A stretch of 64,000 nucleotides of DNA from Clavelina lepadiformis (Eukaryota; Chordata; Ascidiacea; Aplousobranchia; Clavelinidae). Under the pieces are notes generated by a model. The model was not told the origin of the DNA. It saw only the letters and a list, made by a program, of their open reading frames with translations, and did not search any database. The stretch covers positions 15,624,001 to 15,688,000 of the forward strand of contig NC_135242.1 of assembly GCF_947623445.1 (NCBI RefSeq), written 5' to 3'. Each line of letters starts with the position of its first letter. Position 1 is the first letter of the stretch. The position numbers and the translations under genes are program-made. Below are positions 14,223 through 41,747 of the stretch, piece after piece.

Positions 14223-14248
14223 CAGGTGCGTTGGCGCCGTGGTGTCTG
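14223..14248 (+). promoter_or_regulatory. E-box/Smad composite module M1 in the Id-A promoter
   Basis: Order on the plus strand: CAGGTG (14223-14228), 4 bp, GGCGCC (14233-14238), 5 bp, GTCTG (14244-14248). The second half fits GRCGNC(N5)GTCTG exactly, the BMP-responsive element bound by Smad1/5 (or Mad) and Smad4 (or Medea) and, with the final G, by Schnurri. It lies about 325 bp upstream of the Id-A TATA box. The match is seen directly; BMP responsiveness is inferred. Confidence 0.75.
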
Positions 14249-14351
14249 GCCCAGTCGTGTTGCACACACCTCAAAGACCGCAATCTCTCGCTTTTTAACC
14301 GATTTTCTCTTCCCCTTTAAACGGGCAATTCGACGCCTTTGTTTTCGCTTC

Positions 14352-14379
14352 CAGGTGCGTCTTGGCGACGCCTAGTCGC
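14352..14379 (+). promoter_or_regulatory. Degenerate E-box/Smad module M2 in the Id-A promoter
   Basis: Order: CAGGTG, 6 bp, GGCGAC (14364-14369, fits GRCGNC), 5 bp, GTCGC in place of GTCTG. It has the same orientation as M1, 129 bp further towards the gene. The altered last half-site could weaken Smad4 contact. GGCGAC and the following GTCGCC also form an inverted pair. Confidence 0.5.
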
Positions 14380-14554
14380 CAGTGTGGGGTAAATAGTGTG
14401 AGAGAGATTTACGCGGAGAGGCTAAGCGCACGTGCGGTGGTCGTTGAAAACAAGGATACAAGTAATGACGAAAGTGAGACAGGGTGGAAAAACTTTAAAG
14501 AAACAAATAATCTTCTCCTCTTCCACGCAAAGCAAACGTGAAGAAAAAAGAATT

Positions 14555-14578
14555 TACGTGACGTTCTGGGTATATAAA
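14555..14578 (+). promoter_or_regulatory. Core promoter of Id-A: CRE-like site and TATA box
   Basis: TACGTGACGT at 14555-14564 contains a CRE half-site (TGACGT). It is followed by the TATA box TATATAAA at 14571-14578. Transcription would start near 14600, leaving about 70 nt of 5' UTR before the ATG at 14673. A CACGTG E-box lies further up at 14429-14434. Confidence 0.7.
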
Positions 14579-14672
14579 CACGAGCATTAATTGAAAATTT
14601 TATATCTACACGCCAGATTACGAAGTCAGCTAGAATATTGCACAGTAATCGCCCGAACTGCTTATCTATAAA

Positions 14673-15062
14673 ATGGTGAAAGCAACAGCTGTCAAGACTA
14701 ACTCTTCAGGCACTCTTCGTAAAGTAGCTAAATCTTCAATGGCAATTCGACGTGATGAAGACTCAGACGTCAAAGAATTGCTCAGCAAATTGCGATCGAT
14801 CGTTCCCACAGAAAGCGATGATGTATCGGCTTTGGATATTGTTCAAAACGCCATCTACTACATACAAGACTTAAACGATCTGCTAGCTCAGGCCCGCGAA
14901 GAAGTTTCTTCAAACGTCGAATTTTCTGACGATGAAAAGGAAAACAAAGACTCCTTCAACGCTGTTGAAACTCCGCTGTTTACGGTGCCAGATGTGTTTG
15001 CCAGCGGCAACAAGACACACTTCAATTCGGCAGCTGGTCTTCATCCAACTCCTGTCTGCTGA
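14673..15062 (+). CDS. Id-A: Id-type HLH protein without basic region (single exon)
   Basis: The 129-residue product begins MVKATAVKT, and a single exon covers it from ATG to TGA. Residues ~31-73 form a helix-loop-helix: helix 1 DVKELLSKLRSIVP, a short loop, helix 2 VSALDIVQNAIYYIQDLNDLL. This matches vertebrate Id proteins (helix 2 EILQHVIDYILDLQ). The segment before helix 1 lacks the E-R-x-R DNA-contact residues of bHLH factors, so the protein should dimerise with class I bHLH proteins and keep them off DNA. The C-terminal half is acidic and serine-rich (SDDEKENKD, a plausible CK2 region) and ends PTPVC. Id-B shares the MVKA start, which supports the chosen ATG. The promoter carries BMP-type Smad modules, consistent with known Id regulation. 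Orthology to a particular vertebrate Id cannot be assigned. Confidence 0.93.
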   Translation: MVKATAVKTNSSGTLRKVAKSSMAIRRDEDSDVKELLSKLRSIVPTESDDVSALDIVQNAIYYIQDLNDLLAQAREEVSSNVEFSDDEKENKDSFNAVETPLFTVPDVFASGNKTHFNSAAGLHPTPVC

Positions 15063-16435
15063 AGAAACTTCACCAGTCCTAACGTCAGACAAAAAATGTC
15101 GTGATGGCTTCTATTCGCAAAAATCAACTTCTGCTGGTAGACGTGAGAGTGAATAATCCATTCAAAAAGGCGTTCTCCAGTACGTATAGGATGTGAGGAG
15201 ACCAAGTTGAAGGAAGGCTCAAGAGTTGCCCCCACGAAATGCGGGGTGTTCGAACAATCGTGACATCGTAAAGATGACTTAATTCTAGAGACTTGTCTCA
15301 TCAAATGTTTCATGTGACACTATATTTTTCGGTTCCTGCAGGAAGTGCTGTGATTAATTATAGTGCATTATGTTGATGTCGTTTTTCTCAAAAAATTTCA
15401 CATCGTGCCTAAAAACTATATGTTGCAATAATCCTGTTTTTTATGCAATACAAAGTGTATTTTATTAAATCAGACAAAAGAAAGAACTTTGTTTGGTGTG
15501 TCTCGGTATAATAGGAAACATATGTTTATGCATAGGTCAGCGTACAGATGTAAGATGGCAAAATCGGCGTTAAACAGTTGTCTCCAATACTTCCACTGCA
15601 GTTTTGTCATCTTAAAAAAGTTTAACACTACAAAGTTGAGATAAGTTAAATGATCGACACGATAGGGTATATTTATCAGCTTTCCGCATATGGCAAATAA
15701 ATTTGTTAAGGACGCGGTTTAAGTTTTAATCGAAGAAAAGTTAAATTTACGTTATCTAAGCTTAGCGGTAAAAAGACGGAAACTATAGTGTTCCCTTAGG
15801 CTTATATAGACATTCGTTCTGATATTCGTATAGACTACAACGTCAGCGGTTGTACAGTATACAAAACGATGATGTCGTTAAATACCTGTAGCAAATTCAC
15901 ATTCTAGACCACACCTGCACTTGGAAATGTTATTTTCTTTGACAATTTTGTGGGTAGGAAAGTGCTTAATACCAGTGATCTATATGCTGAAAATTTATGG
16001 CTATCATCAGAACGTGTTTCTCGTTAAACGAACCCAATTTTCGTTATATATAATTAACTTATACTTGTAAGTAGGGAGGTTACAGGCCATTTACTGAATT
16101 AAGTTTATTTATTTTCTGCTAGGTTAGTACAAATGTTTGAAATGCACGAAATTTTAAGACAGCGTCGGTGCCACATACGATACACGTCATTATCATATTA
16201 CACGTCAATTTATGAGAGGGGTCAAAATATTTTTTGCCATATACAGATCGTACAAACTTTATTAATATAGTCAGTATATACGGCTATAAACCGTTTTGTT
16301 AACAAACCGATAAAAATCAATTTTTTACCATCGATAGTCGTTTAACAATTCGGGCAAAAAGTTACTTCAAAAGAGAATAAAAGAAACAACAAGAAAAGGA
16401 GTGACGAGGCGCGGCTACTCTCGTAAACAAAGGAG

Positions 16436-16463
16436 CAGACTTGCTGGCGTCGACTCGCACCTG
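16436..16463 (-). promoter_or_regulatory. E-box/Smad composite module M3
   Basis: On the minus strand: CAGGTG (16463-16458), 6 bp, GACGCC (16451-16446), 5 bp, GTCTG (16440-16436). The Smad part fits GRCGNC(N5)GTCTG exactly, using GACGCC rather than GGCGCC. It lies 1.4 kb beyond the Id-A stop and could act as an enhancer for Id-A or Id-B. Confidence 0.7.
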
Positions 16464-17385
16464 GGTAATTTGTTAGCACATGTGCACACAGTTGATTGAG
16501 ATTCCGACGCGTAGTTTGTGCAGATGGGAACTCATAACTGTTTAGTCACTTTGTTAAATCACACAAAGCTTTGAGGTAATATATCGCATCACGAAAAACT
16601 CCATGCCGTTTTGACCAATATGAAAGATACTTTTGTACTCTCGCACCTGTAAGCCGTTTCGCCTTTGTGAAATGTACTTCAGTTTAACCTTTGCAAACCC
16701 CGTAAAATTTACTTTTCTCATCGATCCTTTGTAACAGTAAGTAAAACGTTGCAACATAATTACCACGGTTTGAATTTTATACATCGTTCAGCGTATGTTT
16801 GTAAATGTTACCATATTTCTTACCTCAGTGTTTTTGTTTATATAAATAGTGTAGCAAAAATTATGTTTAGTACTTGACATGACAATCTTTTATTGCTTCC
16901 AAGTTAATTCATTTGCGCTGTTCTCGTTTTAAAAATATTTTGAGTTTAAATGAATGCAGGAAGTATTAAATAATAGCATATTACTCATCAACTGCGTGTA
17001 ATTGACACTGCGTATGCTGTGATATCAGTATAAGAACACAATACAATGTCGTTTTGTCGGAATGCAAAACTTGATTACTTTTTCCAGATAATATTTACCA
17101 ACTTGCAAATTTTTATTTAACCGGTTGATATTTTTTAGTTAACAAATGTAAACCTTCATATAGTTGAAAGCCGAACCCAAACAGACAAGAAGACAATGAC
17201 TTTGAAAGCTATAAATCCGAGTTTTGAAAGTACAAATTTTTAATATTATTCTGACGATTATCAACGAGGTGTTATGATCACAAAGTACTAATTCTGATGC
17301 TATGTCAAACTTATTTTCGACGCCACCAAGTCGAGCTATGCAGAGGCTAAGAAAAGCCGGGATTGGCAACGAATTACTACGTCCC

Positions 17386-17413
17386 CAGACAGGTAGGCGC
17401 CCAAAAACACCTG
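17386..17413 (-). promoter_or_regulatory. E-box/Smad composite module M4
   Basis: On the minus strand: CAGGTG (17413-17408), 6 bp, GGCGCC (17401-17396), 5 bp, GTCTG (17390-17386). This is an exact GRCGNC(N5)GTCTG match, 0.95 kb from M3 and in the same orientation. Confidence 0.72.
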
Positions 17414-20400
17414 TAGGTAAATAGTTGAAATTGAAAAGTCGACAATGGTTGATAGCGTCTCCGCTTTTCTGTCACACAAAAGAAAACTTTTACTCTCGAA
17501 AAAATAAAGTGACGAGGAAAGCTAACCGACACGTGGTCTTATTCATGTGTGATTGGTAAACATTTTTCTACAAATTAAAAAATAAAATCGCATCATTAAA
17601 ATTGTTACTGAATAGTTTAATTTTTATTATCGAATCACCTATACTAATTTTGCAAATAAAAGTATAGAAGATGTTTACTTGGCGTAACATTTTCAAAACT
17701 GTATTTCAAAATCCATGAACCAGAAGTTGTCCAAAATCATATGTTGAACAATACCAAGAATAGCTTGCATAATAAACTTTTCTGTCCGACAGTGTGGCAC
17801 CATCTCGGTCGACATTCGAAAATAATACGATATCATGACAACAATACATGATGGCGTGTATAAAAAAGGCCGTCAGATAAAAATAACAAATTTGAGCAGA
17901 CTGGCGAGTGTGTGGGAAAGGTGTACGGTAAATAATCGGTTCATATCATGATAATTTATAACCCGCTTTCCATCACAGGAACCGCAATTACAACTATTTT
18001 ACGACACGGTAAGCGGCAGATGGTGCGCGTGTGGGAACCTTTCGCTGTTACGTATAAAACGCGAAAGAGTTATCTTGTCCAGGCAAAATTGTCAACAGTG
18101 TAGGCGCGAAATATCCTTGCTGAACTATCTACATAAACATACTGCTATCACCAATGTGAAAAAAATATTTGCATTCTTAACAAAATTTGTGACTTCAAAC
18201 AGGATGGTAAAACCTTTCTAAAACATATTACTCCGTTTTTCATTTTGTTTATATATTGTTTGACAAACATTATATAGTAACGATGAAAATTATTTTTATG
18301 TACCTATTTTAACAATGTAAACTATTTTAATTAACGATTTAAAAAAAACATAAAACTTTATATATTCGAAATATTTTGACACTTAATCAGTTTACCTTGT
18401 CCACAATAAATTTCGTGTAGTTGCAGTATACTAACTGCTTACGTAAATTATACTTCTTAAAATGTTAAATGTAAGCTGGCTTTGTTATATAAAATCAAAT
18501 TAAAGATGGCGATGGGTTTAAATTTCATAGGCATTTGAACTGTAGCATTTTGAAAACCGGCTTTAATTGATCAAAAGAGATTAAAGCAAAGATTTATGTA
18601 GTATTTTATTTGCTGACGAAGTCTCAGATTAACCAGCAACTGATTACTTTTTATATTTTTTTGTGAATATCTTTCGGACGCAAAAGTTGGTATTGCAAGC
18701 AAATAAGGCAATACAGATCTATAGAGAGAAACTTCTTTGAAGGAAAACTTTGTCATAACGGTATAAATCGGCACATACACAAGAATTCGTCAAAGTAAAA
18801 TCTCTTTCGAGGTATGAAAAAGCCGTGTGTGAAGTACAGCCGCTTGTCTATATTCTATAGACGCGTTTGGACCTGCAGAGTAAACGCCAGGTGGAAAACG
18901 AATGGGAAAAATCGAAGGTTTGTTGCGATAATCGATCACAACATTCAACATGCCGGGTTCCCAGCAATTTTCGCACGGTTAAAGAAGAGATTAGCCGTGT
19001 TATAACACACCTTTTATCATTATGCAATGTAGTTAATCTATTTATCTTTTGTTTTTTAGAATTGGCACCATAACGTCATAGCGGAGAATAAAAAGAGATT
19101 TAAATGATTAAGTTCGAACGTTCTAACCATTTTCGAAATTGAAAACATGTTTATCTTCATCATTTATTCATCAAGTAAAAACAAAATTGTTTTTCGTAAC
19201 ATCTTCAATAAATCTTAATATTTTTATTATGTTTTTTGATTATAAAACAGGCCGGGGCCTATATACAATTAACACACAGAGTGTCACTGTTTCATAGTTT
19301 GTCATAGCTTAACCGCAACACTCATTTATCTATACATAGGCCCGCATAGTGTTTCCATCATCGTGAAACAATAAACGAATGTTGTTTATGGCGTAATAAT
19401 TGCGAGCTACGTCCCATTGGGCCACCTATTGATGAGCTAACAAGATTGAGCAAGAGAATAATTGCTTTCAAACCTATATACCTCAGCATAGTTTCAGCGT
19501 GGGAAAGTTATGCGAAAGCGACAAGGGGCAGCTGCAAGGCGGATGGGAAAATGACACTGCTGTAAGGACATCGCGTGCCCCACGCTTTCTGTTTATTTTG
19601 CTTTCTCTACAACCACAGTTATCAAATCTTGTTAGCGAATCGACGCTCGCCTTTTATTTGAAAACAAATATACACTGTGCACATGAATTATGGATCAACT
19701 GTATGATGAAATAACGGTCGCAACTTTTTTGTCGCAATCATATATTGATTATAAAACTGTAGATAAAATCAAAATTGCATAAGTTAAACGTATAAGATAT
19801 GTATAACTGTGCATTTCCAAGTAACAATAACATTTCAACACGGAAGAATTTTTACTCTTGTTTACAGTATAGACATATTTGCTAGCATGAAAGTATGAGC
19901 AGCTTGAAACAATCAATAGTTGTAAGCAATAATGAACGATCAAAACAGGATACCCATTGCTTTGGCACTTGACTACGTAATCAATCGGCTTTGATCTGAA
20001 TTCCCAAGACAGTTGCAAAGTATACAGTAAAACTTTGTGTGAACGGAACTATAGTTGAAAAAACTTTTTCTCCCACTCATTTTAGACTGGGATATTTTTC
20101 TTGATCACCTGCTTTGCTTGATATCGATATGTCCCTGGCGTGCCTATGGCCTATCTTAATCAGCCCTTGCTTTCAGAAACAAGCCATGAGCTGGAGCACA
20201 ATTTCTCCTTCTCTATGACGTAATTAAACCACACAATTTTTCCAATTACACGGTTCTTAAGGGGAAAACGTTTTGAAATTGTTAAAATGAAAAACTGAAC
20301 TATACGTCACACAAAATAGGAACAAGAATTATGGGAATAATGACAATTATGGATCATTACAAAATAGGCATTATGCAGAAACGCCAAGGACATTACTTTT

Positions 20401-22285
20401 CAGCGCAAAACTTTCTTGGCGGACGTGATTTTGTTCTATTGCTTAATAAACAAATTGAACTATATTTAGTCCTTGGTTCACAATAACAAATGATATGTTT
20501 TAAATAAATTGGACAATTTCGTTAATTACTTTGCGTCGACTTTTTTGCTTTACTCGGTCGTATAATATTTGCTTATAAAAGTTATATTTGCGGCCAACCT
20601 GAACCAAGAAGTTAGAAAGATACTTGTTATGTGGTGACGTCATTATAAACGAAAAGCAGATGTCTGGCGTGTGAGAAAGTTCGTATAATGTACACACGTA
20701 TATACAGACGATTAAAAAAAAAAGATAAATTTCACTTAGCATTCAAAATTAACGCTTGTTTTTTCTTCTTTAAAGTAAATAAACTTTGTATGCTTTACAA
20801 ATTTTGAAAACGGTTTAGGGCCGTTTGTTCCGCTTCCAAATCTGTTAAACCAAAGATTTATACTACAAGAGTTCTTTGTATTTAAGCTAAAAATCGATCG
20901 TCGAAAGAAGCATTACAGGCGATTGAACCATAGGAAATACACTATTTAAATCGCAAGTTTCACACACTCTTCAAAAACATATAGACTGAATAGAATTGTA
21001 AAAACGATAAGTTCTTGGTATATTATGTTCATTCGCTTCATTGCACTAAAACAGTTTGGAACCCAGCTTGAAGCGGATTGGCCTGTCCAACGCTAATATT
21101 TATTACTTAATAAACTCAAACGACCCGCTTCATCAAGGCACTTTTCAATTCATACTGACTGCCCAAAACAAACGTTTATAAAACATGTTAGTTATAAACA
21201 AAATTTATTAGGTGGTTTGGCAAGATTTTTCGCAAAACTTTTGTTGGTATACCTGGCTGAAAGGCAATTAAAGTCATAACAGTTGTCGTGTACAACTGTT
21301 ATCAACAACATTTATAACGCGTCGCGTCAAAGTTAAATACGTCAACTAGCTATCATCGAAATGTTTTAACATATATACGATTTAGAGTTATGTTATAAGT
21401 AAAATAAGCACATCGAAGGCACGATATACAACTTTTTTTGGACTTTGAAATGTTTTGAATGAGGTGTTGTATAAACAATAGACCTACTTTGATTGTTGTT
21501 TTGATATGCAAAGTTTTTCAGATACATTTCTTTTTGAAATAACGCAAATGTTAACAAGTTGAATAAAAATTTTGATATCGCACGGTAAAAACTATCTCAC
21601 GTAGCATGCATTCCTAAAAACCGGTCATCTTGGTTGGAGTTTTTCTCAGTCAATCTAACCCTTGAAGCAAAATTTGTCAACAATTTCACTCTCTATATGT
21701 ATACATGAAATTTAATTATTTCTTATGATTTTGGAAAGACCTATATGTAATAAAGCCTTTCTGTGCTGTATAGAATAAACATTGGAAGCACGTGAGTGTA
21801 TTTCATATACCGAGTGATCCGTTTAAGTAAGGCACTAAATGGTGAACGTCAGATATACTAAACGAAAATATACATTAAAGTTAAAATATAACACATTTTC
21901 TATAAAAATAACTTTATAGGGAATGATCAGCGGTAAAATTACAGTACAAAAGCACAAAAGGGTTGTTCGCCCATGGAGAACAAATGTTGGCACATCGTAT
22001 ACAATCCTATAAGGCCACTCAGAATGTATAAAAGAGGTTATCAAGTGTTTTTATCCACAAGGCACGTGGGTGTCGTCATTATTTACGTCCAACAAGCATG
22101 CGTTGTTTCGTAACGTTAGTCTGCGCCCTTTACCAACAACTTCAACTTTTCCATCCTGCTTACGCCACTTGATCCAAACGCTTGCATATATGATGAATGA
22201 TACGGGAATAACTTCAAGGAGGTCTATGCTGGATCCTTGCCTATATGATTGCTCGGTACATCAAAATCAGTTCAGATCAATCAGA

Positions 22286-22913
22286 TCAGTTTGGAAGCTT
22301 TGGATGAAGTCTTGTTTCGGATAAAGTATTCTTTGAAATAAAACAAACTTTCAAATTAAATTGGAACACCAAGAACGTATAATTTATAAACCATTAATTG
22401 AAACTGTGTTGAAATGCTCAAAACAAAAATAAACTTACTACATTCGTAACGTCGCGGAAAGATATTTGCGAGTTTTTGTTAACTGCTGGTTGACAAACAA
22501 GCCCGTTGTTGTCAAATTGGAGTGGAAAAGAACCGGAATAAGCACCGGGATGCTGATTATCGAGCATTTTATGGAGGTCGTTGATGTAATCTACTGCATG
22601 CAATACGATGTCTAAACTGGAAACGGGTTTTGCTTTGCATGATGGAATTACTTCTCGCAACTTTTTGTACAGCAACCTGAAGAAAATTAATACCATTATA
22701 AAACAAGCAAAGATAACGCTTTAAAGAATATATCGGAATTCTACAAGCAAATACATACCTTAGTTCTTGTCGTTTCTGCAGCTTACTAGCCTCTTTGAAG
22801 CAAATTTGATTTCTTTTGTCCACTTTGCCTATGCAGTCAAGTTTTTTGGCTTGCTTGGCGGCACGATCGTTAGATAAACTCATGTTCTCGTGTAAGGGAC
22901 TAGCCTTTACCAT
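22286..22913 (-). CDS. Id-B: Id-type HLH protein, three coding exons
   Basis: Exons on the minus strand: 22913-22759, 22676-22439 and 22330-22286, all GT/AG and in frame, giving 145 residues. The start MVKASPL parallels Id-A. Residues ~46-91 form the HLH: helix 1 ELRLLYKKLREVIPS, a short loop, helix 2 VSSLDIVLHAVDYINDLHKML. The first intron interrupts the codon for R52 at the start of helix 1. The segment before helix 1 (FKEASKLQKRQ) has lysines but not the bHLH E-R-x-R contact pattern, so an Id-like dominant-negative role is expected. The last exon (14 residues, ending LHPKLPN) is inferred from a strong donor (GTA|GTAAGT) and a plausible acceptor. Without it the protein would end a few codons into the intron. 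Being spliced, Id-B differs from the single-exon copies A, C and D. Confidence 0.9.
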
Positions 22914-22974
22914 TATTGCAATCTTATACAAGCTTCTCCAATTGACTCGAGAGTGGTGATTTCAAACATCGCGT

Positions 22975-22981
22975 TTATATA
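22975..22981 (-). promoter_or_regulatory. TATA box of Id-B
   Basis: Minus strand TATATAA, about 62 bp upstream of the ATG at 22913. This spacing places the start site near 22945 and leaves a short 5' UTR, supporting the ATG chosen. Confidence 0.65.
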
Positions 22982-24104
22982 ACAGGCAGGCATCTTCTTC
23001 GATGGCAACCGACCCTTTCTCTAACAACAAAATCTTTTTTCGAAATACTATTACGTCATATCGGAACAGAATGCCATGTTTAAATTAAGCAACAGAAGAG
23101 AGGGTGCGAAATGAGAGAATTGCGTCCAAAGCTGATATTTGACTTGGCCGACATGGCCCTGTTTGACCATAAGCGGCCTTATTGCCATCTCTTTGAATTG
23201 TTGTGGATTACGATAAATCCGACATTGTAATATACCCAGTCTCCTCTCTGATCCATCTTCAAACGTTTTGACACAAAATAAGCTTATTATAAATTCCTCC
23301 AACAAAAAATCAAACAAGAAATCCTGGTCGCAGCACAACACTTGTAAATTATATTTTGATGAACTATCACTACGCCATTATATAAGCTATGCTTTTGAAT
23401 GGAATTATGTACAGTATGTAAGCCATGTCTATGTCGCAAACATTGCAAGTTTTTCCAAAACCATGAGCAGCGTTTTACAAAAACGTCTAGTTTATATACG
23501 TGGGTTTCGCAAATTTGTAATGTGCAAACAAGCGTTTCAAACTCAAAGGCAGGTTGGTAATTATTTGCAGGTCATTATTAGTCTTGTAATGTATTTCGTT
23601 TTCACTCCCTTTTCCCATGTGATTAGCTATCAACTCCACGATATCATGGCAAAGGTTTATTGTTGTTTTCAGCATTCAATTGCAATTTTCTCACGGAAAA
23701 ATGTTAACGCCCCTTGCCTAAAGCATTATGATTTAAATAGTCTATGACTCTATGTTGTCTCACAAGAATAAATACTGTAACTTGTGTGATTTTAGTAATA
23801 GAAATATAAAAAATAGCACTTCTAAAGTGCTTACTAGTGAAGTTTAACTAACTAACTCCATAGGCTATAAACGATAGATGACGTAGATAAAAATGGTCAG
23901 CATTAAATTTTGTGTATACGGTAGCCCACTATGAGACTATAGTACGGTAGTTGACCTAACAATGGTAACAAACATTTCATTTAAAGCTTCTTGAACAAAT
24001 GGTAGCATTAAGCAAATTCAACATTTTTAGGTTTGAAGATTTCGAAGATGCTTTCCACGGTTTTGGATTCTAAAATTATTGCTCAACATTTAGTAAATTT
24101 GGAG

Positions 24105-24112
24105 AAAAAAAA
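24105..24112 (-). terminator. Pol III T-run after tRNA-Lys
   Basis: A run of T on the minus strand (A on the plus strand) begins about 7 nt past the tRNA 3' end, the normal RNA polymerase III stop signal. Confidence 0.8.
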
Positions 24113-24118
24113 GTTTAG

Positions 24119-24191
24119 CGCCCAACGTGGGGCTCGAACCCACGACCGTTGGATTAAGAGTCCAACGCTCTACCGACTGAGCTAGCCGGGC
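24119..24191 (-). tRNA. tRNA-Lys (anticodon CTT)
   Basis: On the minus strand the 73-nt sequence folds as a standard cloverleaf. The acceptor stem is GCCCGGC with GTTGGGC, allowing G-U pairs. The D-arm is TAGCTCAGTCGGTAGAGC. The anticodon arm TTGGA-CTCTTAA-TCCAA carries anticodon CTT, and the T-arm is GTGGG-TTCGAGC-CCCAC. The discriminator base is G. The A and B boxes (TAGCTCAGTCGG, GGTTCGAGCC) are intact, there is no intron, and a T-run follows the 3' end for Pol III termination. It reads AAG codons. It sits alone between Id-B and Id-C. Confidence 0.97.
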
Positions 24192-24940: not shown

Positions 24941-24973
24941 CAGGTGCACAATTAACCAAGTTGTACGCACCTG
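24941..24973. repeat. Imperfect palindrome of two CAGGTG E-boxes
   Basis: CAGGTGCACAA on the left mirrors TTGTACGCACCTG on the right around an AT-rich centre. The pair is therefore two inverted CAGGTGC E-boxes about 21 bp apart. There is no GRCGNC site, so it is not one of the composite modules. Confidence 0.6.
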
Positions 24974-25880: not shown

Positions 25881-25906
25881 GAGACCGAGCGGCGCCTTTG
25901 CACCTG
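25881..25906 (-). promoter_or_regulatory. E-box/Smad composite module M5
   Basis: On the minus strand: CAGGTG (25906-25901), 4 bp, GGCGCC (25896-25891), 5 bp, GTCTC (25885-25881). Spacing is identical to M1 and M7. The last base is C instead of G, which in flies would favour Smad activation without Schnurri recruitment. It lies 2.9 kb upstream of the Id-B TATA box and in the same orientation as that gene. Confidence 0.7.
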
Positions 25907-27437: not shown

Positions 27438-27465
27438 CAGACTGGCTGGCGCCAGGCAGCACCTG
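27438..27465 (-). promoter_or_regulatory. E-box/Smad composite module M6
   Basis: On the minus strand: CAGGTG (27465-27460), 6 bp, GGCGCC (27453-27448), 5 bp, GTCTG (27442-27438), an exact GRCGNC(N5)GTCTG match. It is 1.55 kb from M5, same orientation. The 15-mer tttgagcagactggc spanning its CAGAC end recurs at 17891-17905. Confidence 0.72.
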
Positions 27466-30400
27466 TAAGTACACAGCCCTTTAAAGAGGCCGTTAAATTC
27501 TGCCATTAATTTCCAAAGTAAACACGCACGAACAAATTTGATCGGCTTCAAACAGGTGTTTTAAGCTTGCTTTTGGATAAGCAAAACACGCGTATGCTTA
27601 CAACGAATGGAGACTTTTGGACAATCTACGTCATACAAATATTTGTCGTGTTCAATTTGCCGCCTTGGCCAAGTACAATGACCGCTTTGGTTGCTGTTGT
27701 CATCAGGTGAATAATTAATCACCTAATTGTAACCAGAGACAAAGAAATAACATTATAAATCTACGTTTAATTCAGTATAACAATAAACGGTTACGCATAC
27801 AATCATAAATGGTATATATACAGTATATATAATCAACCGACAACGTTGCTTCGTTTTTGACATGTCTATCAACTGCTTGAAATTGAGAAATCAGCACGCA
27901 TATAATAACGAGAGTGAAATACAGGAATTGCGAGTAGCTCCGAAAGTCAAGTTTTCGGTAAGTTATAACAATTTACAACCGAGGCGCATTACTCTTTAAA
28001 CTGTTTCTAAAAGCTTCTAAACCTTTTAGTGGCATCACCTGGTCAGACATAATAGTATGATATAACATAATTAAACTATTAATAGTCCTTTGTTCGTTAT
28101 ACGGTCATCTGCTACGAAATTGTCCCACACCTGGTGAAATATACAATGGCGCCAGTTGAGTGGCGAATCCAGGCCATATCATTTGTTTGATTTTAGCTAT
28201 AATTACCAATTCCGGAAACAATCGCATTTTTGATTTGTCCAAGTATGGCGTAAAAGTCAGCAAAATGGATCAGGCATTTTGGCCTCCCGGTACCAGCTGT
28301 TTTAGCACATCCAGAAACTTACAAAGACGTTTAAATCAACTTCGTTTGTGTGCACAGCAGAGATAGCTTCAAGACAATGCTGTTATTAATGGCTTGCTTT
28401 CTCTTAAAGAGGCAGTCGTCCAACAAAAGTGTAATTATAAGGTCCGTATGCCTGTTTACACTACTAGGAAAGCGTATTGTTTTCTAAAATAGAAAATTTC
28501 AACGAATAGCTGTTGTATAGTCTTCAACCGTTCAACGCTGTCAGTTGATTTTGCCAGATCCATTTGTTAAAACTCGGACAGCTGAGCGTTCAATGCTGTT
28601 TAATCAGCTGATTCCAGTTTAAAATCTCGCTCGAAAAAATTGCTTTTTCCCAGCACGCAAAGTAATGTTGAATTTCACAGAGATTGTATTTGAAACAGAA
28701 AAATTATATTATAGGAGACTGTCAAGAGTTTTTCACTTATCCTTCACCATATACTTAAGAATGAAATCTATACAGGATTGTGACACATACCTCATGTAAT
28801 GATTTTGCGTTTTTAATGACGTGTTTGCGTTATGTCGCGCCGCCCTTATACGGTTTAAGCTACTGGACTGAGTAACCCATGTAATCATATTGAAACGATG
28901 TATAACAACCACAGTAGATTACAACGTTCGCTGCAGCTCAATTACCAGCATCCTTCCCGCACATATATTTTTATGTAAATTTATAATGAAGTGAATATCT
29001 TTATAGAAACCGTTAGATACGTTTTTTGTGCTATATCCAGTTAAAATGAAGAAATCTTTCCAGGTAAAACTAAAAATTACGGATAAGCTAACGATTGTAG
29101 TGTTTTTTATTCTATCTATACTTAGATATAGTTTACGAGGTTTCATCATTTTTCTTTTATTTGATGCAGTCACGTTTTAAATGTTGGAATGAACAATATA
29201 CAGTATCATATGCAGGCTCCTGTATAATAAGGTTTTCGTTAAAATAGCATGATATATGTTTCATAAGTCAATCCAACCACGGTCAGATCAGAGTCAATGG
29301 ACATTATGATTTAATTTCGAGAAAAGTATATACAGGGCTATATATTATTTTATGTCACCTTGCGGTCCATCTCGCAAACGACCTATAAGTTATTGACCTC
29401 TGCCGACAATGTTGACAAAACTAGAATTTTTGTATAATTTCGAAATAGATTAGATGCTCAAATAAAAAATTGGACCTTTTGGACTTAAAAGGACTTCAAA
29501 AATTTAAAACTTTAAGTATTGTGAAAGCATTAATGTATATATTGAACGTTTGTAATAATTTCCTAAAATATGTTTGCATTTTTTAATTTATTCCCTCTAA
29601 CATATAATAACGTTGCTTTAGATTCATCGCATACTTGATAATGAGCGTCATGACTTACCAAATTAAATGCCAGCAGTTATACGTATCGACTCATTATATC
29701 TATTGCTATATCAAATGAGATGTTGATGATATGATGTTACGTATTTACAGAAGTTCCTGAAACAAATTAAGCGGATTTGGTCTCGTATGGGTTTAAATTG
29801 TTCATTAAAATAAAAAGTGATCATGAAGACGTTGAAAAATCTTGCCACTCGTTCTCTACGTAAGTGAACCACGCTTAAGAAAATTGTGATTAAGAGAACC
29901 AACGAGAAAAATGCATAAACAATCAAACAAAACGATCAGGAAAGGGTATTTTTTGGTTGAAAAATCGCTTACATTTCTATATATACAGGACCAAACTTGA
30001 CTCGTGAAAAAAATTGCTTTTCATATTAACATGTCATGCATCGTGACGTATTAAAATGTTAAAATAGTAGTGCAGTAATTTAAATAAAATTTAAATTACA
30101 GATTTCAATCAAATTTACATAAAAAATGAGGTTTTGGCGCTTACGAAGTTAACGTGATATTTTCAAATATGGTAATTTATCAAGTTTTCGCCTCTTAAAA
30201 GGGTCGAATTGATCGCAATGAAATTTACCGGGGTTGAGCTTTCGGAGGATGGTAGTTTACAGTATATTTTGCTTTTTACAAATTAATAATGTATTACCTA
30301 TAGCTTTTTATACTTGTGAATGCCTGTCTATGAAATCAACTTTAACTACAAAGATACTTCAGTAAGAAGGATTGAGATTCCCTATTTTGTCAGCTCACAA

Positions 30401-33400: not shown

Positions 33401-35805
33401 TACATCAACAAAAAAACGCTTTTGTTTCATGTACAATTAGCTCCTGTTGTTGAAGGCGGCAAATGAATATCAAGCAAAGCGCAATGTCTATAATTTGAAA
33501 TTGGCCGAATGTTCCGCACAGAAAGCAAACTTGAATCTTCAAAAAGAAGGAATGTTTTGAAAATGGCGGTATGTTGGCAAAAACAAACATTGTAATTTTT
33601 GTTCTGTCAAGCTGTATACAGAGCATGAGTATTTTATACCTATAAAACACGTAGCCTATGCAATACGAAAACAATAAAAATACAATTTTAGTAAAGCTTT
33701 AATTAAATAGAAATGATAAAATATTAGCTAACGGATATTAGTTTAGTTTTCCTCTTTTGTCTTCAAGATCATTTTAATACGTTTATTTGTAGGATTATAA
33801 TTAATATGAGAAAAGAAACTGTAAGGCAAGATGTGATGGCTTAACATCATTTGACATTTGTGATGGTATTAAGTTTAAGTAAAGGGGGAAAGCCGGCAAG
33901 CGTGGCACTTACGAAGCAGTCGACGGAATTACCATCAGTCATCAAATGTCTGCTGGGACAAAAAACGGGTGGCGGGAAATTCAAAAATCATATTCGGGAA
34001 AGACAGATGTACCCCAGCTGCCACACGTTGGACCAAATCGAACCAGCGTTGTAGCGCGTGCCAGCAATCTCATATGTTTCTCTGTCGTAGAACAGCTGTC
34101 ATACTCCTCAAAAGAATTGATTCTGATAAAATGTTTCCATATTCAATCAGTGCTTGTAATAATTTTGATTTTTGGCGGCAATCTTTCAATGTTCGTTGAT
34201 GCGGCTAATAAATTTAGACCCGCGCGTTGCCTAGCGGTACTTTGTTCTCGGGTACGGTTAGAATATATAATATTGTTAGTAGCAGCTGCACAGAATACAC
34301 TAAATAGTTCACAAGTTATCTCTTATACTATAGTATAGTTGTGATACAATAAGAAATGTAATTTTACGAAAAGTGAAGCTACCGTTTTTATGACTCAAGT
34401 ACATTATTATATCATACGCAGTAAACGCTGGTTTGAGTGAGGACAAGACGAGCGGGAACATTTCCCCACGATTGAAAGCAGCTGCTGTTTATTTGCATGG
34501 AAAAGTCACATACCCGATATGCGATACACGCCTCGCTGACTTAAACCATTAATGTAACATAAGGATGGCGAATTAACTCCTTCTGTAGCAGTCTGTTTGT
34601 TTTGTTAATGCAAAATCATGTTCACGTTATAACGGCATCACAAATAATTATATTTATTATATGTTGTGTCCTCCAAATTTCTTCACGTGTCAATTACTTT
34701 CAGCAAAACCAGGTGTACGTTCCGCGTGTAAATGTTTCATTTGTGCTGCGTTTAGTGCTCCAGCAAGTGTTTAACTGATGAAGAGAAATCGAATAGGCCG
34801 GATGATAAACTTGTTACAGACAGCATAAACAATCCAAAATCTTACACCTGAATACATTTGTTTTAGCACAAAAGATAAGATAATGATAACACTGAAGTCT
34901 TCATTTGCGCTGAAAGTTCTTGCAATCTTTTTTTTCGATATTGTTGTACTGTATACGTTGTACACATTTGCCCACAAAAAACGAGTTTATTTTTAATGTT
35001 TAAGACAATTTATTAAATGTAGTTCAGTTTTGATTTCTGTGACAATATTCACGCTTATATAATCCACCGCATGCAATTGATATGTATTGAAGATACAGAA
35101 TATTGCTAAATTATATTTAGTTAGTATTTTTCTCTGCACGTCGTGTATTTAAAAGACATATCTTGAGACAGGCAAAACCAATGTCATTATAAGACAAATG
35201 TTACGTCAAACATTAGCGACACATATCGTTAACGATAAAAGCCTATATACAGTATAATGTGGATTCTTCACGTTTGATTCCCAGCAGTGTTGAAAGCCAT
35301 ATGCTAACGTGGATTGCATGCAACTGTCACTTTTCCAGCAACTGCAACATTTGGATAAGCAACTGTACAGCTTTTCAACATGTGTGGTTTTATAGTTTTC
35401 TGTTACAGCAATAGAAAAACGCCATTTGCCATTACGTTGGTGATTAAACCTACAACTGTCGTTTGCTTGGTATCCAGATTTCGTATAATTTTCAATGAAA
35501 TATAAGATGAAATAAGCAATGGACAAAGGAACACTTAAAATAAACTTTCGAACTACACACCGACGAAAGAGAGTGCAATTTCTGAAAAACATGGAATACA
35601 TAACGAATCATTGTCACGTCGATTCGTGCTATATGGAGCCTAAATCCGCACTAATACTGAAAATTGATGACCTAGACCGGAAAAGCAAAAAGCGGTTTGA
35701 AATTGGCGCGCACGAAATTGTCTTTCAATGAAGCAGAACTGATTGCCATGTAGAGCGTATTTGCGTTAATTGTGCTTCTTGCAAAGCTAGCCTGTGGAGC
35801 GGAGG

Positions 35806-36488
35806 CGTGGGAACAGAATCATTTATATAAGTTATCATTTACTATGTCCCCATAATCTGATTATCGGTAGAACATTTTCTCCCGTGCCGATAATACGTCA
35901 TATAACGAAACCAGCCATCATCATGGCAGGTGACACGCGAGTGGGGGAAAAGCAGGTTTGTTTCTGTCTGCTGTGTGATAAAAAAAATCAAATCTATTAT
36001 TGCATGACGTTTAAAGACGGACCAACGGCTGCTTTAGGTTTGTCGTTGCTTGATCAACACCTGTTGAGGACAACGTCATAAATTTTTACTTCGGATGCTA
36101 TTTGTCATCACTATTTTAAAGCCATGAATGTATTTTGTTGTTATAAAACATATATCGCAAAACCGCAGTGTTGTTTGTGACTCAAACCAAAACGCAAGTT
36201 AAGTTAGAATATCTTAACCCAATTGTTCAACAAAATTTACACCATTTCATTATTTGATATGTTTACCAGTTGGTTAATGTAAACACGTTACAAGAAAACA
36301 ATAGCGTCTGGATATAACGAGATCATACCGTTATAGTTTTTCTGTTATAGGATTCCAGCTGCGTGCATTTTATCGCTTCTAATACAATGCTTAATCTTGT
36401 ACTTCTTTGTTTCAGGCAATTATTTTATATTGTAAGAGATCGTGAGCGACAGACATCGCCGGGAGCTTGTGTTTATCTGGTGTGGGAA
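35806..36488 (+). promoter_or_regulatory. Two Su(H)/CBF1-type sites upstream of Id-C
   Basis: CGTGGGAA at 35806-35813 and TGTGGGAA at 36481-36488 both fit YGTGGGAA, the consensus of the Notch effector Su(H)/RBPJ. The second is about 75 bp upstream of the Id-C TATA-like box. Single 8-mers are common by chance, so function is inference. Confidence 0.4.
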
Positions 36489-36561
36489 ACAGCATTGTAG
36501 TTTGATAACAATACAGCAGAACCAGAAGAAGGGAAAAAAGAGACGTTCATCGCCTTCGCTT

Positions 36562-36567
36562 TATAAG
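36562..36567 (+). promoter_or_regulatory. TATA-like box of Id-C
   Basis: TATAAG is followed by GGGG, 79 bp upstream of the Id-C ATG. A pyrimidine-AG acceptor-like string (tacgttttcag, ending at 36607) lies between it and the ATG, so a 5' UTR splice or a trans-splice acceptor is also possible. Confidence 0.5.
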
Positions 36568-36640
36568 GGGAACTGTGACGCTGCAAATTATTCCAATACG
36601 TTTTCAGGGAGCAGACGACGACAGCGAGCTACTGTTTAAA

Positions 36641-36967
36641 ATGGGAAAGGCACATTGCATTAAAGTGAGGTCATCTGACAGCAAAAATAAGAAGTTTCTT
36701 TCAACATCACCAAAGTCGTTGACGATCTTAAAGAAGAAAAACGAAGAAGCTGCCATATCTAATTTACTGAAGGAACTTAAATCAACCGTTCCAGCTTTGC
36801 ACAGCACCCCAGAGAGTGATGTGACGTCACTGGATATAATCCAACAAGCAATCTTCTACATTCATGATTTGTGGACTGCTCTGGAGGATGATGAGGACGC
36901 TGCCATGTCCGGTTTTGACTTGAAAAAGCATATAAAAAATCTTAAATCTCCAAAAGCTGTTTGCTAA
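36641..36967 (+). CDS. Id-C: Id-type HLH protein (single exon)
   Basis: The 108-residue product begins MGKAHCIKVR. It has a lysine-rich N-terminus, then an HLH at ~38-82: helix 1 AISNLLKELKSTVPAL, loop HSTPESD, helix 2 VTSLDIIQQAIFYIHDLWTALED. Helix 2 is nearly the same as in Id-A and Id-B (SLDI followed by AxxYIxDL). Lysines precede helix 1 (ILKKKNEEA) but the bHLH arginine/glutamate contacts are missing. The short acidic-then-basic tail ends SPKAVC, echoing the PTPVC end of Id-A. An upstream in-frame extension of 22 codons exists, but the TATA-like box at 36562 and the gene-like ATG context favour 36641. An AATAAA poly(A) signal is at 37401-37406. The expected role is sequestering E-type bHLH partners. 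Confidence 0.92.
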   Translation: MGKAHCIKVRSSDSKNKKFLSTSPKSLTILKKKNEEAAISNLLKELKSTVPALHSTPESDVTSLDIIQQAIFYIHDLWTALEDDEDAAMSGFDLKKHIKNLKSPKAVC

Positions 36968-39900
36968 ACATGGTATACCTCCCGTATATCATCTACGTAA
37001 CAAAGGTATAAGCGTCGTTTTCAGTGCTTTATTATATTTATCAATTTAATTATTATAAATATCTTAATATTTTGCATATTTTCGGTATCATCCAGTTCAT
37101 ACTGATGAATATCTATTTCTGTTCAGATTTTACACAAGGTTGTAAGACTGGCAGCAAAGGCTTTTCGGTTGAAAATCGAACATGTTTGGCGACTGTTTAG
37201 GGCTTCTGAACACGAGTTGTGAACACGCTATCGTGTCGTTGATGATGTTGGTCGCTTATAGAAAGAAGAGAGAAAGGCGCCGGCATTTGTTTATTTTTCT
37301 CGAGTTTTGTTTTTTATTGCATATTGCGTTTTGTTCGTATTGTGGATCATTGTGTTAAATAGTTTTGTTTTACCGGTTTGAATTTTCACTGTGTTCTTGC
37401 AATAAAAAAGACCGTCATGACTAGAAATCAATACGCCTGACAGCTGGTGCACAGTTTTTAAGGGGTCACCTTACTGGTCACCCTGACCAGAACAAAATTA
37501 ACCAAATCCAAAAATTCCAAGCAAAAATACAAAACCAGATTATTCAAAACCTAAAACTTCCATCCTGGAATTTTTCCGCCTGGAATGCCCTTTATCCATC
37601 TGGAATTCCATCTTGGAATTGTTAAAAACAAGGAAATAACAGACCGTAGAAATTTTCAAATAAACAAGATTTTCCCAATATACAAAATATAATTCTTAAA
37701 TCCGGTCGGAATCTTGAAAACTAGAGCAGAATATATTGCAGAAAACGTTGTACTTCGACGAGATCTCTGGAGTCGGCAGTCGCACCGGTGAAATGCTGAG
37801 CAAAACGTTATGCTGGTGTGCAACAATCTTTAATTAGACTATTGTTTAACTAGGCTATTAGAATAGTCTGTCGGTAAGGTGGATGAGACTAAATAATTCT
37901 GATCCAGGTCCACAAACACTTGATTGGATTTAAGTACTATAGCCACCGAGTACCATATTTTGCGTGGCGTTTTTAACCAAATCGGTGTGCCGATGTGCAA
38001 GCTGTTTTGCACGTAAAAAGTCTGGTGTGGACGTGACGTAGGTAGGCTACTCAGTAGTCTAGCTAATTCTAACATCCTATAGCTGACATCTGGCTAATTT
38101 TGAAAACCTGTTGTGTTTGGGAAGTAATTCTCAACAGATCGGTTGATGAGGGTACGCTAAGATACATGCCGGTAACTTATTTATACCGTATATATCGATA
38201 TGGTTTGCACGTTCAGAGGACACTAGATTGGGCTATCAACTTTTTTGGAGAAAACCTCACAGGGTGAAAAACGTTCAAAAAAAGCATTTGTAATTGAAAA
38301 AAATTGTTATAAAAGGTTTTTGAAAATTAAATTAAAAAGTTAATTGAAACTAAATTTAAAACAACTTCCCAAAAAACTTTTATTTACGACAGAAATTTCA
38401 AAAAGTTTTCTGTAAAAAATTTTTACAATTAAAAAAAATAATACCGAAATATTTCAAAAATTACCGCAAAGTATTTGTAAATCCGTGTCGGCCATTATGT
38501 TTATGAGTGACTTATACATACTCACAAATACAGCACAAGATATTTTACCAAACAGGAATTCTTGCATAGATGATAAGCGGGAGATGTAATGTAAACTTAA
38601 ACTTTACTTAAATGCATAACAGGAGTGTTTTGGGTTAGTCACGTCTAGTTTTCAGTTAGTGCATTTGTTCAGATGATGCTAGAATATAGATGCTATACGT
38701 GTTAGCTGAGTCCAGATTACCATATATTTACTCAATTATAAGCCGCAACTGATAATCATCATTTTTGGAGCTTACGTTCAAGAGTGATTAGCTTAAAATC
38801 AAGGCCTAAATACAGTATTGTTGTTGTTGGCCAGTGCGGTAACTGATATTTGTCGCAAAGACACGATAGCTTTATGGTAATAGGATTTTCAGTATGGCCT
38901 GTAGTCTAATGTAACCTATATGAAATCTTCCTATGTTGCAAACAAACGTTATTTCTTGTAGTATAACTTATTCAATACAAAACTTATATAAGCGTTGTCC
39001 GGACTCATATCAAATACTGTATAATGTATATAGTCGCCGAGCTATATTTGTTCTACAAACATTGCATTTGTTTTACATAGTGACGTTGTAACCGTAATTG
39101 CCACCAGCCGCGTTGATATGGGTATAGCAGATTTGCGATTTAGTGTGATGCATTTTTGACAACAATTGCTTTTCCACTAACTAATATTAGGCAATTCTTA
39201 CTGAAAGGTCTTTTTGATATATGAAGTTCACTTGTGTTAGGTTTAACCCCTTACACTTTTAACGCTGGGTTTCCATTTGCTGTTTAGCTATAACATTTTA
39301 AACGTTAGTATTACAAAAATTTATGATTCAATCATATCTCCTATAACTTATCCTCGTATAGTAAAAAGCTCTTGATTCTTGAAAATATGATATAATATTT
39401 TTTTGAAATAAATAGCTTATACAGAATTGTGAATTGGAAGTGTTTCTCTGGTTTAAATTCAAATGTGTGATACACGAGAAAAGTGAATAACTTGAATATA
39501 AAAAAAAACTTGCGTTACGTGTGCTTGAAAAAAACTTGTGTTCACCAGCTTGCATAACTTTCATACATATAAATTGGATCTCCCGTTGAACATTGTACTC
39601 ATCCAGCTTTTTAAACCGTAAATAAATGCCGTACCCAGTGATCTACTTTACGTAGAACTGTATAAACGCGCAATCCTTGAATACTTCGGAGCTAATTATA
39701 AGAAAACGCAATGAGGACACATAAAATTTATTTTACGAAGTTTGCTTTTACCATTTTCAAAATAAGAAATATACAGTATTAAGCACAGGAATCGTAACGA
39801 GTAAAAGCATGATTGATTGATTTTGTTTTGCTATACTTCAACTGACTAAAAGAGATTTTATCAATAAAAACGTATATAGACTTTATAAATTACCAAGAAA

Positions 39901-41721
39901 TTGTGTGCATACGTTTTTTATAACTTAACTATAAGCAGATAAGCAAATAAAGTAGGATAGGATAAGTCTTTCTAATTTAGCCTGAAAATCGATACAACAA
40001 TTCGGGACATGTAGTCATAGCACGTAAACAAATAAACAGGTAAGAAGTATAGCATGCACGAACGGAAGGTTTTATTCTTATAAGTGATAAAAGTTTCTTT
40101 GTAACTAGAGATACAAAGATTTAGATAAGCCTCGCGACCGTAGGGCGCCAGTCAGAATATATTTCACTTTATTTAACTTGCCTGTGCCGCGCTCCTGGTC
40201 AAAGAGCTTATTATCTGAACCTTAATCGATTTATTGACACCACACGCAAAATGAGACGCTTTCAAAGTTTCTACACCAGACCAGCGACCCACATACAAAA
40301 TACCTTTGTTGTCCATGGCGCCAGGATTCAGATTAATGCTTTAAAACATTTAGTAAAATAGGCCTTTCATTAGGAATTGCTTTGTTTGAAATTATCACAG
40401 CAAAGTTGACTTCATTCTTTCAGGAAAAAAGAAATAAATCCACTCAATATGCCATGAGCATGGGAAAATCACAAACAATGCGTACGTTAGGGTAAAAACC
40501 ATCAAATTCTTTCTTGAAAACACGTCTGGTGGTTTTAGTAACTAATTAAGCAGCCACACAATTATAGGTACTGACGACAAAGCAAATTAATATAGTACAA
40601 GTCGCCTTCAGTCATTGTGCATCACTCGAACATCGAAGAGAATGGCGACATATGACGCTGAGTTACTTATTCACCTGGCAAATAAGATCACTTCCGAACA
40701 CTCCCACTTTTTAGGAGGTCCGGGAGTGCCTGCCCAGCTGTTTTAGAGTGGGAGTCTGAAGCGAAACAAGGAGAGTAGCCGCTCCTCACACATTTGGTTC
40801 TATATGCAGACAGCTGCGGCCCAAACGCACCTGATTCGCTGTGTAACGAGATTTTAACAGTCTGATTAAGTAAGTATTCTTAGTACACTGCATGGCGCTA
40901 AGCTATTTCGCTTATCTGATACGTTCTTACTCAGCAAATATACAGCATATATGTTTCAAATCGGAAGAACAAGTTGTACTTCTAGGCTTTTGTGTGCTTA
41001 TACATCCTTTCAAAAGTATTTTATCAGCAAAGATTAAGCGATCAACGGGCAGCTTTAAATCTTTTTGAGAATGTCTAACTCCGTATCTGTGTCGTTAAAC
41101 TTTGAAGAAGCTTGATAAACAGTCATTACTAGGGCGGAGAAAAGCTAATTTATGTTAGATGAGTGGAGAATAAACATTTGATTTATCGATTAATCAAATG
41201 CTGTTGCGCGAAAGAGTTTACACAACTTTGCGTAACCAGATTTTCTGACGCCTCTTACGAAAGAAGCTTATACAATACATAATGGTAAATTTTGCAAAGC
41301 AGTCATGAATTTTACAAGTAACACGAAAATTTTTTATAAAACTTACTGTGAATGAAACGAAAAACCGATGTTTATTGTCAAAATAGGTATAAAATGTGTC
41401 ATCTTTTGCTTTTAATTTATCTCATAGCTGTTGTTTTCACTTAAGAGATAATCTGTATGACCTTAAGTCATTGCCGATGTGTGTCAGGTAAAACACGCCC
41501 ATACGATAACTCGAAACGAAAAACAAAGTTTGACTTTTTATTTACGAATTTCATAAAATTATCGAAATGTTTTGATATTACAGGCGTGTTGGATAATATG
41601 TGTAAGCCATAAGGTGAAAGTTCCATCATATCGAAACATTTTAACGCATGTGTACGCGTAAATTGGCTTAAACAAACGGCGGCCCATTGGTTGTGCTTCA
41701 CCTAAGTCTGAGGTTAATAAC
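36968..41721. other. Non-coding interval between Id-C and Id-D
   Basis: The first ~440 bp is the Id-C 3' UTR to the poly(A) signal at 37401. Later come short imperfect repeats around CTGGAAT (37557-37620), an A/T low-complexity patch (38275-38470) and degenerate module M8 (40807-40833). No further gene is recognisable. Confidence 0.5.
40807..40833 (-). promoter_or_regulatory. Degenerate E-box/Smad module M8
   Basis: On the minus strand: CAGGTG, 5 bp, GGGCCG, 5 bp, GTCTG. Order, orientation and the 5-bp Smad spacer match the other modules, but the central hexamer is scrambled relative to GRCGNC. It lies 0.9 kb upstream of M7. It may be a decayed copy or a chance match. Confidence 0.3.
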
Positions 41722-41747
41722 CAGACAGTATGGCGCCTGCACACCTG
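41722..41747 (-). promoter_or_regulatory. E-box/Smad composite module M7 in the Id-D promoter
   Basis: On the minus strand: CAGGTG (41747-41742), 4 bp, GGCGCC (41737-41732), 5 bp, GTCTG (41726-41722), an exact GRCGNC(N5)GTCTG match with the same spacers as M1. It lies about 350 bp upstream of the Id-D TATA box, nearly the M1-to-TATA distance of Id-A (325 bp), though in opposite orientation to the gene. Confidence 0.75.

Follow-up and report, generated by a model that had tools for sequence, protein, structure and literature searches.

The 64,000-bp stretch of the genome of the aplousobranch ascidian Clavelina lepadiformis considered here (C3:15,624,001-15,688,000, hereafter the window, with positions counted from its first base) contains four open reading frames (ORFs) of the Id type, which we call Id-a to Id-d, and around these genes six copies of a composite DNA element. 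Id proteins act by blocking cell-fate factors. Each copy consists of an E-box (CAGGTG), a spacer of 4 or 6 bp, a GC-rich Smad site (GRCGNC), exactly 5 bp, and a second Smad half-site (GTCT). The composite is real, and it is found at only one locus in the genome. A repeated E-box and Smad site of this form, confined to a tunicate Id cluster, was the subject of the original prediction made from the letters of this DNA, and below we describe the genes and sites, their frequency and grammar, and the regulatory reading that we consider best supported.

The best-matching members of the gene cluster are Id-a (14673..15062, plus strand), which encodes 129 amino acids with a Pfam helix–loop–helix (HLH) match of 21 bits, against a cut-off of 20.7, and Id-b (22418..22913, minus strand), which has at least two exons with a visible GT donor and AG acceptor, its ATG at 22913, and the HLH in its second exon (23.4 bits on 22418-22696). 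Id-c (36641..36967, plus strand; 108 amino acids) falls just under the same cut-off with 19.1 bits, and Id-d (42252..42764, plus strand), Id-like but divergent, matches HLH only weakly (13 bits); its loop contains a long insert, and the ORF may be a decaying or lineage-specific paralogue. Two of the four ORFs therefore pass the Pfam cut-off, and the lack of a basic region of the type seen in basic HLH (bHLH) proteins, as in Id-a, was judged by eye. Among solved structures the nearest to Id-a are those of ID-1, a weak match (E 0.4), and the structure search returned no match to Id-c. Besides Id-a itself, a genome search with Id-a as the query recovered Id-c (E 1e-4) and Id-b (E 0.6), together with two matches elsewhere that are not significant (E 0.2 and 0.6), and missed Id-d; no Id gene was detected outside the cluster with this single query, which is too insensitive to exclude one. 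From their sequences, the Id genes look like tandem paralogues, and the four ORFs lie around the composite sites; the predicted tunicate Id cluster is supported.

All six composites are present in the sequence with the grammar that had been claimed for them, although the intervals given earlier include one extra base after GTCT; that base is G or C, as proposed (G at five sites, C at one). Three exact copies lie around Id-a: one at 14223..14247 (plus strand, CAGGTG-N4-GGCGCC-N5-GTCT), with the ATG of Id-a 450 bp downstream of it, and two downstream of the gene, at 16437..16463 (minus strand, CAGGTG-N6-GACGCC-N5-GTCT) and 17387..17413 (minus strand, CAGGTG-N6-GGCGCC-N5-GTCT). Upstream of Id-b are the copies at 25882..25906 (minus strand, CAGGTG-N4-GGCGCC-N5-GTCT; ~3.0 kb from the gene) and 27439..27465 (minus strand, CAGGTG-N6-GGCGCC-N5-GTCT; ~4.5 kb). 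The sixth, at 41723..41747 (minus strand, CAGGTG-N4-GGCGCC-N5-GTCT), precedes the ATG of Id-d by 529 bp and lies 5.1 kb downstream of that of Id-c. As had been noted, the E-box is always on the same side and at a near-constant distance, 4 bp at three of the exact sites and 6 bp at the other three. Read with the E-box as the distal end, the exact sites point to the nearest Id gene in five cases out of six; the exception, 41723, faces Id-c and not its neighbour Id-d. We attach no weight to this orientation.

The two degenerate copies that accompany these sites are likewise present: that at 14352..14378 (plus strand, CAGGTG-N6-GGCGAC-N5-GTCG, 321 bp upstream of the Id-a ATG) differs by a single mismatch, GTCG for GTCT, whereas that at 40807..40833 (minus strand, CAGGTG-N5-GGGCCG-N5-GTCTG) departs further, with GGGCCG as its GC site and a 5-bp E-box spacer. 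We also found a seventh GRCGNC-N5-GTCT, absent from the original prediction, at 14171..14185 (plus strand, GGCGTC), which has no E-box. The base left free in the earlier pattern is C in all six exact sites, giving GGCGCC at five and GACGCC at one; the copies without that C are the site at 14171 lacking an E-box and the one-mismatch copy at 14352 (GGCGAC).

The genome-wide scan that had been proposed as a check was run on 209,060,895 bases in 95 contigs, using the reversed pattern as the genome-wide control; genome counts of repeats are lower bounds. The full pattern CAGGTG-N4/6-GRCGNC-N5-GTCT occurs six times in these 209 Mb, against ~0.27 expected and none for the reversed control, and every one of the six lies inside the 27.5-kb Id cluster, so that the confinement first claimed for 64 kb extends to the whole genome. 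Within the window, the six occurrences compare with zero in 100 dinucleotide shuffles. The Smad half alone shows no general enrichment, with 768 copies of GRCGNC-N5-GTCT in the genome and 1091 of the control; seven are in the window (0.14 expected from shuffles), all of them between 14171 and 41747, where ~0.10 would be expected in 27.5 kb. For the narrower form GGCGCC-N5-GTCT, the genome holds 51 copies (control 34), five of them in the cluster against 0.007 expected.

These narrower copies allow the association with the E-box to be measured directly. CAGGTG stands 4 or 6 bp upstream of all five cluster copies of GGCGCC-N5-GTCT and within 0-30 bp upstream of none of the 46 others (Fisher P 4e-7); seven of the 46 resemble one repeat at C8:5.78-5.93 Mb, which leaves about 40 independent controls. 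In the surroundings (up to 32 bp) of 25 of the 46, CANNTG is found upstream at three and CAGGTG on neither side, and one of the 46, C7:20158111, has CAGGTG on its GTCT side. Widening the E-box spacer to 0-30 bp for the GRCGNC form yields nine matches in the genome (control 3), namely the six described above and three elsewhere with spacers of 2, 0 and 20 bp, none of which has GGCGCC; at the 761 sites outside, chance would give 2.8 such matches at the CAGGTG rate set by base composition and 6.3 at the rate observed in the window. When GTCT is dropped, CAGGTG-N4-6-GGCGCC is found 14 times, five in the cluster and nine outside (control 4), a slight excess that is unexplained.

Alternative arrangements of the same parts behave as background. 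A flipped E-box upstream of the Smad half occurs three times in the genome (control 6), and an E-box on the GTCT side seven times (control 7, with three of the seven being copies of one repeat), in neither case within the cluster; a flipped E-box on the GTCT side, searched for in the 64-kb window only, is absent there. One-mismatch copies outside the cluster number eight for the 4-bp form (control 11) and three for the 6-bp form (control 9). If any CANNTG is allowed, the 4-bp form is found five times in the genome (control 1) and the 6-bp form four times (control 7), with two and one of these, respectively, outside the cluster; the three cluster copies of each form all have CAGGTG. Because CAGGTG had been chosen after looking at the sequence, we also looked, in the 30 bp to each side of the seven Smad sites, for the 6-mer that most of them share: it is CAGGTG upstream, at six of the seven, followed by a 6-mer at four. 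Among 5000 random sets, each of seven anchors, no 6-mer was shared by more than four.

The bases of the element alone are common to the six sites. The E-box spacers (CGTT, CGAGTC, TTTTTG, CAAA, CTGCCT and TGCA) and the N5 linkers are mutually unrelated; the 30-bp flanks have mean identities of 0.27 and 0.24 between sites, that is, no homology; and masked 400-bp flanks gave 12 rows of weak matches between sites, where random pieces gave a mean of 10.6 and a maximum of 22. One of these 12 rows, a 92% match between the flanks of the copies at 14223 and 14352, was rejected as a sign of homology, as the two sites are 129 bp apart and the match is the same DNA. Counts of 8-10-mers shared among the 200-bp flanks were under the means of random sets, so that no further syllable emerged from these flanks. 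Given unrelated flanks and spacers, neither a recent duplication nor a mobile element is a likely source, and the pattern fits strong selection on sites that were repeatedly gained or anciently inherited. The idea of one syllable reused across the Id locus is supported, there being six exact copies in unrelated surroundings, and the composite is most likely cis-regulatory. As a separate observation, a 17-bp near-identical inverted block lies beside two composites, at 16406-16422 and 40771-40787 (E 0.04); we drew nothing from it, because random sets average 10.6 matches at E up to 1.

Inheritance of the sites from a single ancestral Id enhancer, copied together with the genes, is a serious possibility that we hold at somewhat under even odds; it concerns the origin of the element and is compatible with the functional reading developed below. 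The tandem appearance of the genes speaks for it, and the element could outlast the divergence of everything around it. Set against this are the lack of flank homology between separate sites, whose shared 8-10-mers are no more numerous than in random sets, the presence of several sites around one gene, and spacer lengths that vary.

The Smad half of the composite corresponds to a known bone morphogenetic protein (BMP) element. The ID-type SMAD composite of human ID1, ID2 and ID3 has the sequence GGCGCC-N5-GTCTG and lies in Smad1-bound regions near ID1-4 (PMC11907993). In reporters of this type, activation by BMP requires exactly 5 bp and GTCTG in the sense orientation, every change to GGCGCC lowers activity, and a change of its last C abolishes activation (PMC11907993). 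At the Clavelina sites, which are located at Id genes, GGCGCC is found in five of six cases and GACGCC in one, N5-GTCT in all six, and the last G in five. They share with the vertebrate ID1-4 and Xenopus id3 elements the two Smad sites, the 5-bp spacer, their orientation and the target gene family, and as a sequence match the proposed BMP/Smad-type element thus agrees with the published ID-type composite. GACGCC, as at 16437, is the form present in the Xenopus id3 element (PMC3439458). The claimed likeness to mouse Id1 holds in part: the ID1 element given in PMC11907993 is GGCGCC-N5-GTCTG, whereas PMC3439458 describes the mouse Id1 fragment as similar to, but different from, that of Xenopus id3. 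In another ascidian, Phallusia, BMP2 causes ectopic expression of Id.b, Id.c and Id.e, and under the inhibitor DMH1 Id.e is lost, Id.b disappears from the ventral but not the dorsal side, and Id.c is lowered (PMC9238270). Because the ID-type motif is matched and the Phallusia Id genes respond to BMP, direct BMP control of the Clavelina Id genes is likely.

Two Drosophila elements are related in form. The silencer bound by Mad, Medea and Schnurri (GRCGNC-N5-GTCTG) fits all six sites as far as GRCGNC-N5-GTCT, and five with the final G; in the fly it represses via Schnurri (PMC11907993), whereas here activation would be expected by analogy with the vertebrate and Phallusia Id genes. The activating element (AE, GGCGCC-A-N4-GNCV) likewise combines a GC-rich Smad site with a GNC half-site at 5 bp, but its V position is T at all six Clavelina sites, none of which is thus an AE, and the A after the GC site is present at three of the six (two of the five with GGCGCC).

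What distinguishes the Clavelina copies from the vertebrate ID-type element as published is CAGGTG, which each of the six exact copies carries 4 or 6 bp beyond its GC site, as well as the sixfold use at one locus. To our knowledge, the fly Schnurri silencer element has no E-box. Composites of an E-box and Smad sites are known from other settings, such as TFE3/Smad3 on PAI-1, where spacing is constrained, and Snail1-Smad3/4 on CAR and E-cadherin; these differ in being neither of the BMP ID type nor at Id genes, and PAI-1 involves transforming growth factor beta Smads and a different E-box. At the HAMP promoter, a BMP-responsive element and E-boxes for the bHLH protein ATOH8 feed one BMP target, but the E-boxes are CACGTG and the account consulted describes no fixed composite (PMC4232863). 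In the portions of the open-access literature covered, we found no description of an E-box fused to an ID-type element. The ID-type BMP element is the known part of the composite, and CAGGTG at a near-fixed distance is the apparently new one.

We favor, with a probability of roughly 0.5, a reading in which the six sites are direct BMP-Smad elements of the Id genes that act with a co-operating partner at CAGGTG, likeliest an E-protein dimer, so that Id output is self-limiting. Going by the published motif, phosphorylated Smad1/5 and Smad4 would occupy GRCGCC and, across the 5-bp spacer, GTCT(G), as at the vertebrate ID genes, and the factor on CAGGTG would sit about one helical turn away. By simple arithmetic, the centre-to-centre distance is 10 or 12 bp from the E-box to the GC site and 10.5 bp from the GC site to GTCTG; since these successive spacings are each about one turn, the three proteins could all sit on the same side of the helix, where they might bind jointly or jointly recruit a co-activator. 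The partner would be an E-protein dimer (TCF3/4/12 type), alone or with a proneural bHLH protein. Transcription of Id would then answer to BMP and to free E-protein together, and Id protein would take away its own activator, closing a self-limiting loop that may fit Id dose to E-protein in the BMP-patterned neurogenic epidermis.

We favor an E-protein dimer and an Id-limited loop because of two sets of published data. E47 prefers CAGSTG and, on a 7xCAGGTG reporter, acts in synergy with ASCL1, an effect partly reversed by ID2 (PMC6126921). In the ascidian midline epidermis, Ascl1/2.b is expressed together with Id.a, the sensory neurons of this tissue express Atoh1/7 and Atoh8, and Id.b is probably excluded from them (PMC9238270).

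Several points weigh against joint input from BMP and an E-protein. The ID-type composite with a minimal promoter suffices for a BMP6 response in human-cell reporters (PMC11907993), so that a partner is not generally required; for this reason we term the partner co-operating and not obligatory, and the E-box may serve to tune or restrict the response instead of enabling it. In PMC11907993, our comparison being confined to its main text, there is no match for E-box or bHLH, and the partners named, near sub-optimal composites, are GATA and SOX. The site at 16437, with its GACGCC, may be weaker than the others, and the nearest exact composite to Id-c is ~5 kb away. CAGGTG suits Snail and ZEB as much as E-proteins. 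Finally, in Drosophila, Daughterless sets the level of Emc apparently via protein stability (PMC5915177), which counts against transcriptional feedback as a general rule.

A stricter version of the proposal, which we regard as speculative and doubtful, is that the composite encodes an Id thermostat in cis: BMP would drive Id only where unbound E-protein is present, and Id would shut its own Smad element by removing that E-protein. The composite would then be a strict enhanceosome used at one locus, arising from a lineage-specific fusion of the two parts at about one helical turn.

We consider it unlikely, in turn, that CAGGTG is read by a zinc-finger repressor of the Snail or ZEB type, which would bind Smads or compete with them and keep Id off wherever it is present, for example in lineages of mesenchyme or muscle. 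ZEB proteins have CACCT(G) as their core site, ZEB2 binds phospho-Smads and is a reported repressor of Id2 in immune cells, and primary Zeb2 targets have E-boxes near Smad motifs, yet in Zeb2-depleted embryonic stem cells Id2 falls and does not rise (PMC10048071). Two convergent CAGGTG...CACCT pairs elsewhere in the cluster (24941 and 27704) would suit bipartite ZEB binding; of the six composites themselves, however, two have a second CACCT half-site no more than 60 bp away and four have none in that range, with pairs at greater distance being conceivable. This count does not bear on Snail, which needs no second site, and by sequence Snail and an E-protein would look alike. A repressor alone also leaves the fixed spacing to the Smad sites unexplained. 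In each of the two convergent pairs, at window positions 24941-24973 and 27704-27724, AATTAA follows the first CAGGTG at a distance of a few bases; the pairs could suit either a bipartite ZEB-type binder or paired E-proteins.

It is quite improbable that CAGGTG is an independent input that is merely frequent in Id enhancers, with no mechanistic meaning to its place beside the Smad sites. The motif is indeed enriched cluster-wide: there are 26 copies in the 28.3 kb between 14.0 and 42.3 kb and eight in the other 35.7 kb of the window, a 4.1-fold difference in density, and when the eight composites are set aside the remaining 18 copies are still 2.8 times as dense as in the rest of the window. 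That human-cell reporters respond to BMP with the Smad half alone (PMC11907993) points the same way. At the cluster's own rate, however, the chance of finding CAGGTG at six of seven Smad sites at the three allowed spacings is ~5e-17, and throughout the window it keeps one orientation and one side relative to the Smad sites, the two alternatives searched for genome-wide having no copy in the cluster. A related E-box, CAGCTG, is also about twice as dense at window positions 14000-42300 as elsewhere in the window.

Chance or a dispersed repeat is extremely unlikely, since nothing was found in its favor apart from some selection bias in a pattern picked by eye, while the genome's six copies are all at one locus with flanks that lack homology, and even the ID-type motif alone, a definition not of our making, is concentrated here (5 of 51, against 0.007 expected).

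Single Smad sites are weak and common, and what directs Smads to their targets is a long-standing question; PMC11907993 argues that at most sites their recruitment needs context-specific co-factors. Six copies of a Smad-plus-partner site in the same arrangement but with unrelated flanks amount to a natural mutagenesis set that reveals the bases and spacings under constraint. Since such elements can be introduced into ascidian embryos by electroporation, the ideas of joint input and feedback, which bear on the dose of Id relative to proneural bHLH proteins in the BMP-patterned neurogenic epidermis, are directly testable.

Outside the Id cluster, a region at C8:18.391-18.411 Mb combines similar parts: two ID-type GGCGCC-N5-GTCT sites lie 159 bp apart, and ~10 kb from them a CAGGTG-N6-GGCGCC-N5-GCCG is found near a 672-amino-acid ORF. 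This ORF has no Pfam match, and we conclude nothing from it; judged by its motifs, the region is a possible second BMP-regulated locus. Two further features of the window were observed in passing. An ORF of 230 amino acids at 60754-61446 is serine-rich, with a composition like that of a transcription factor and no Pfam match, and a tRNA-Lys (CTT) gene lies within the Id cluster, at 24118-24191 on the minus strand.

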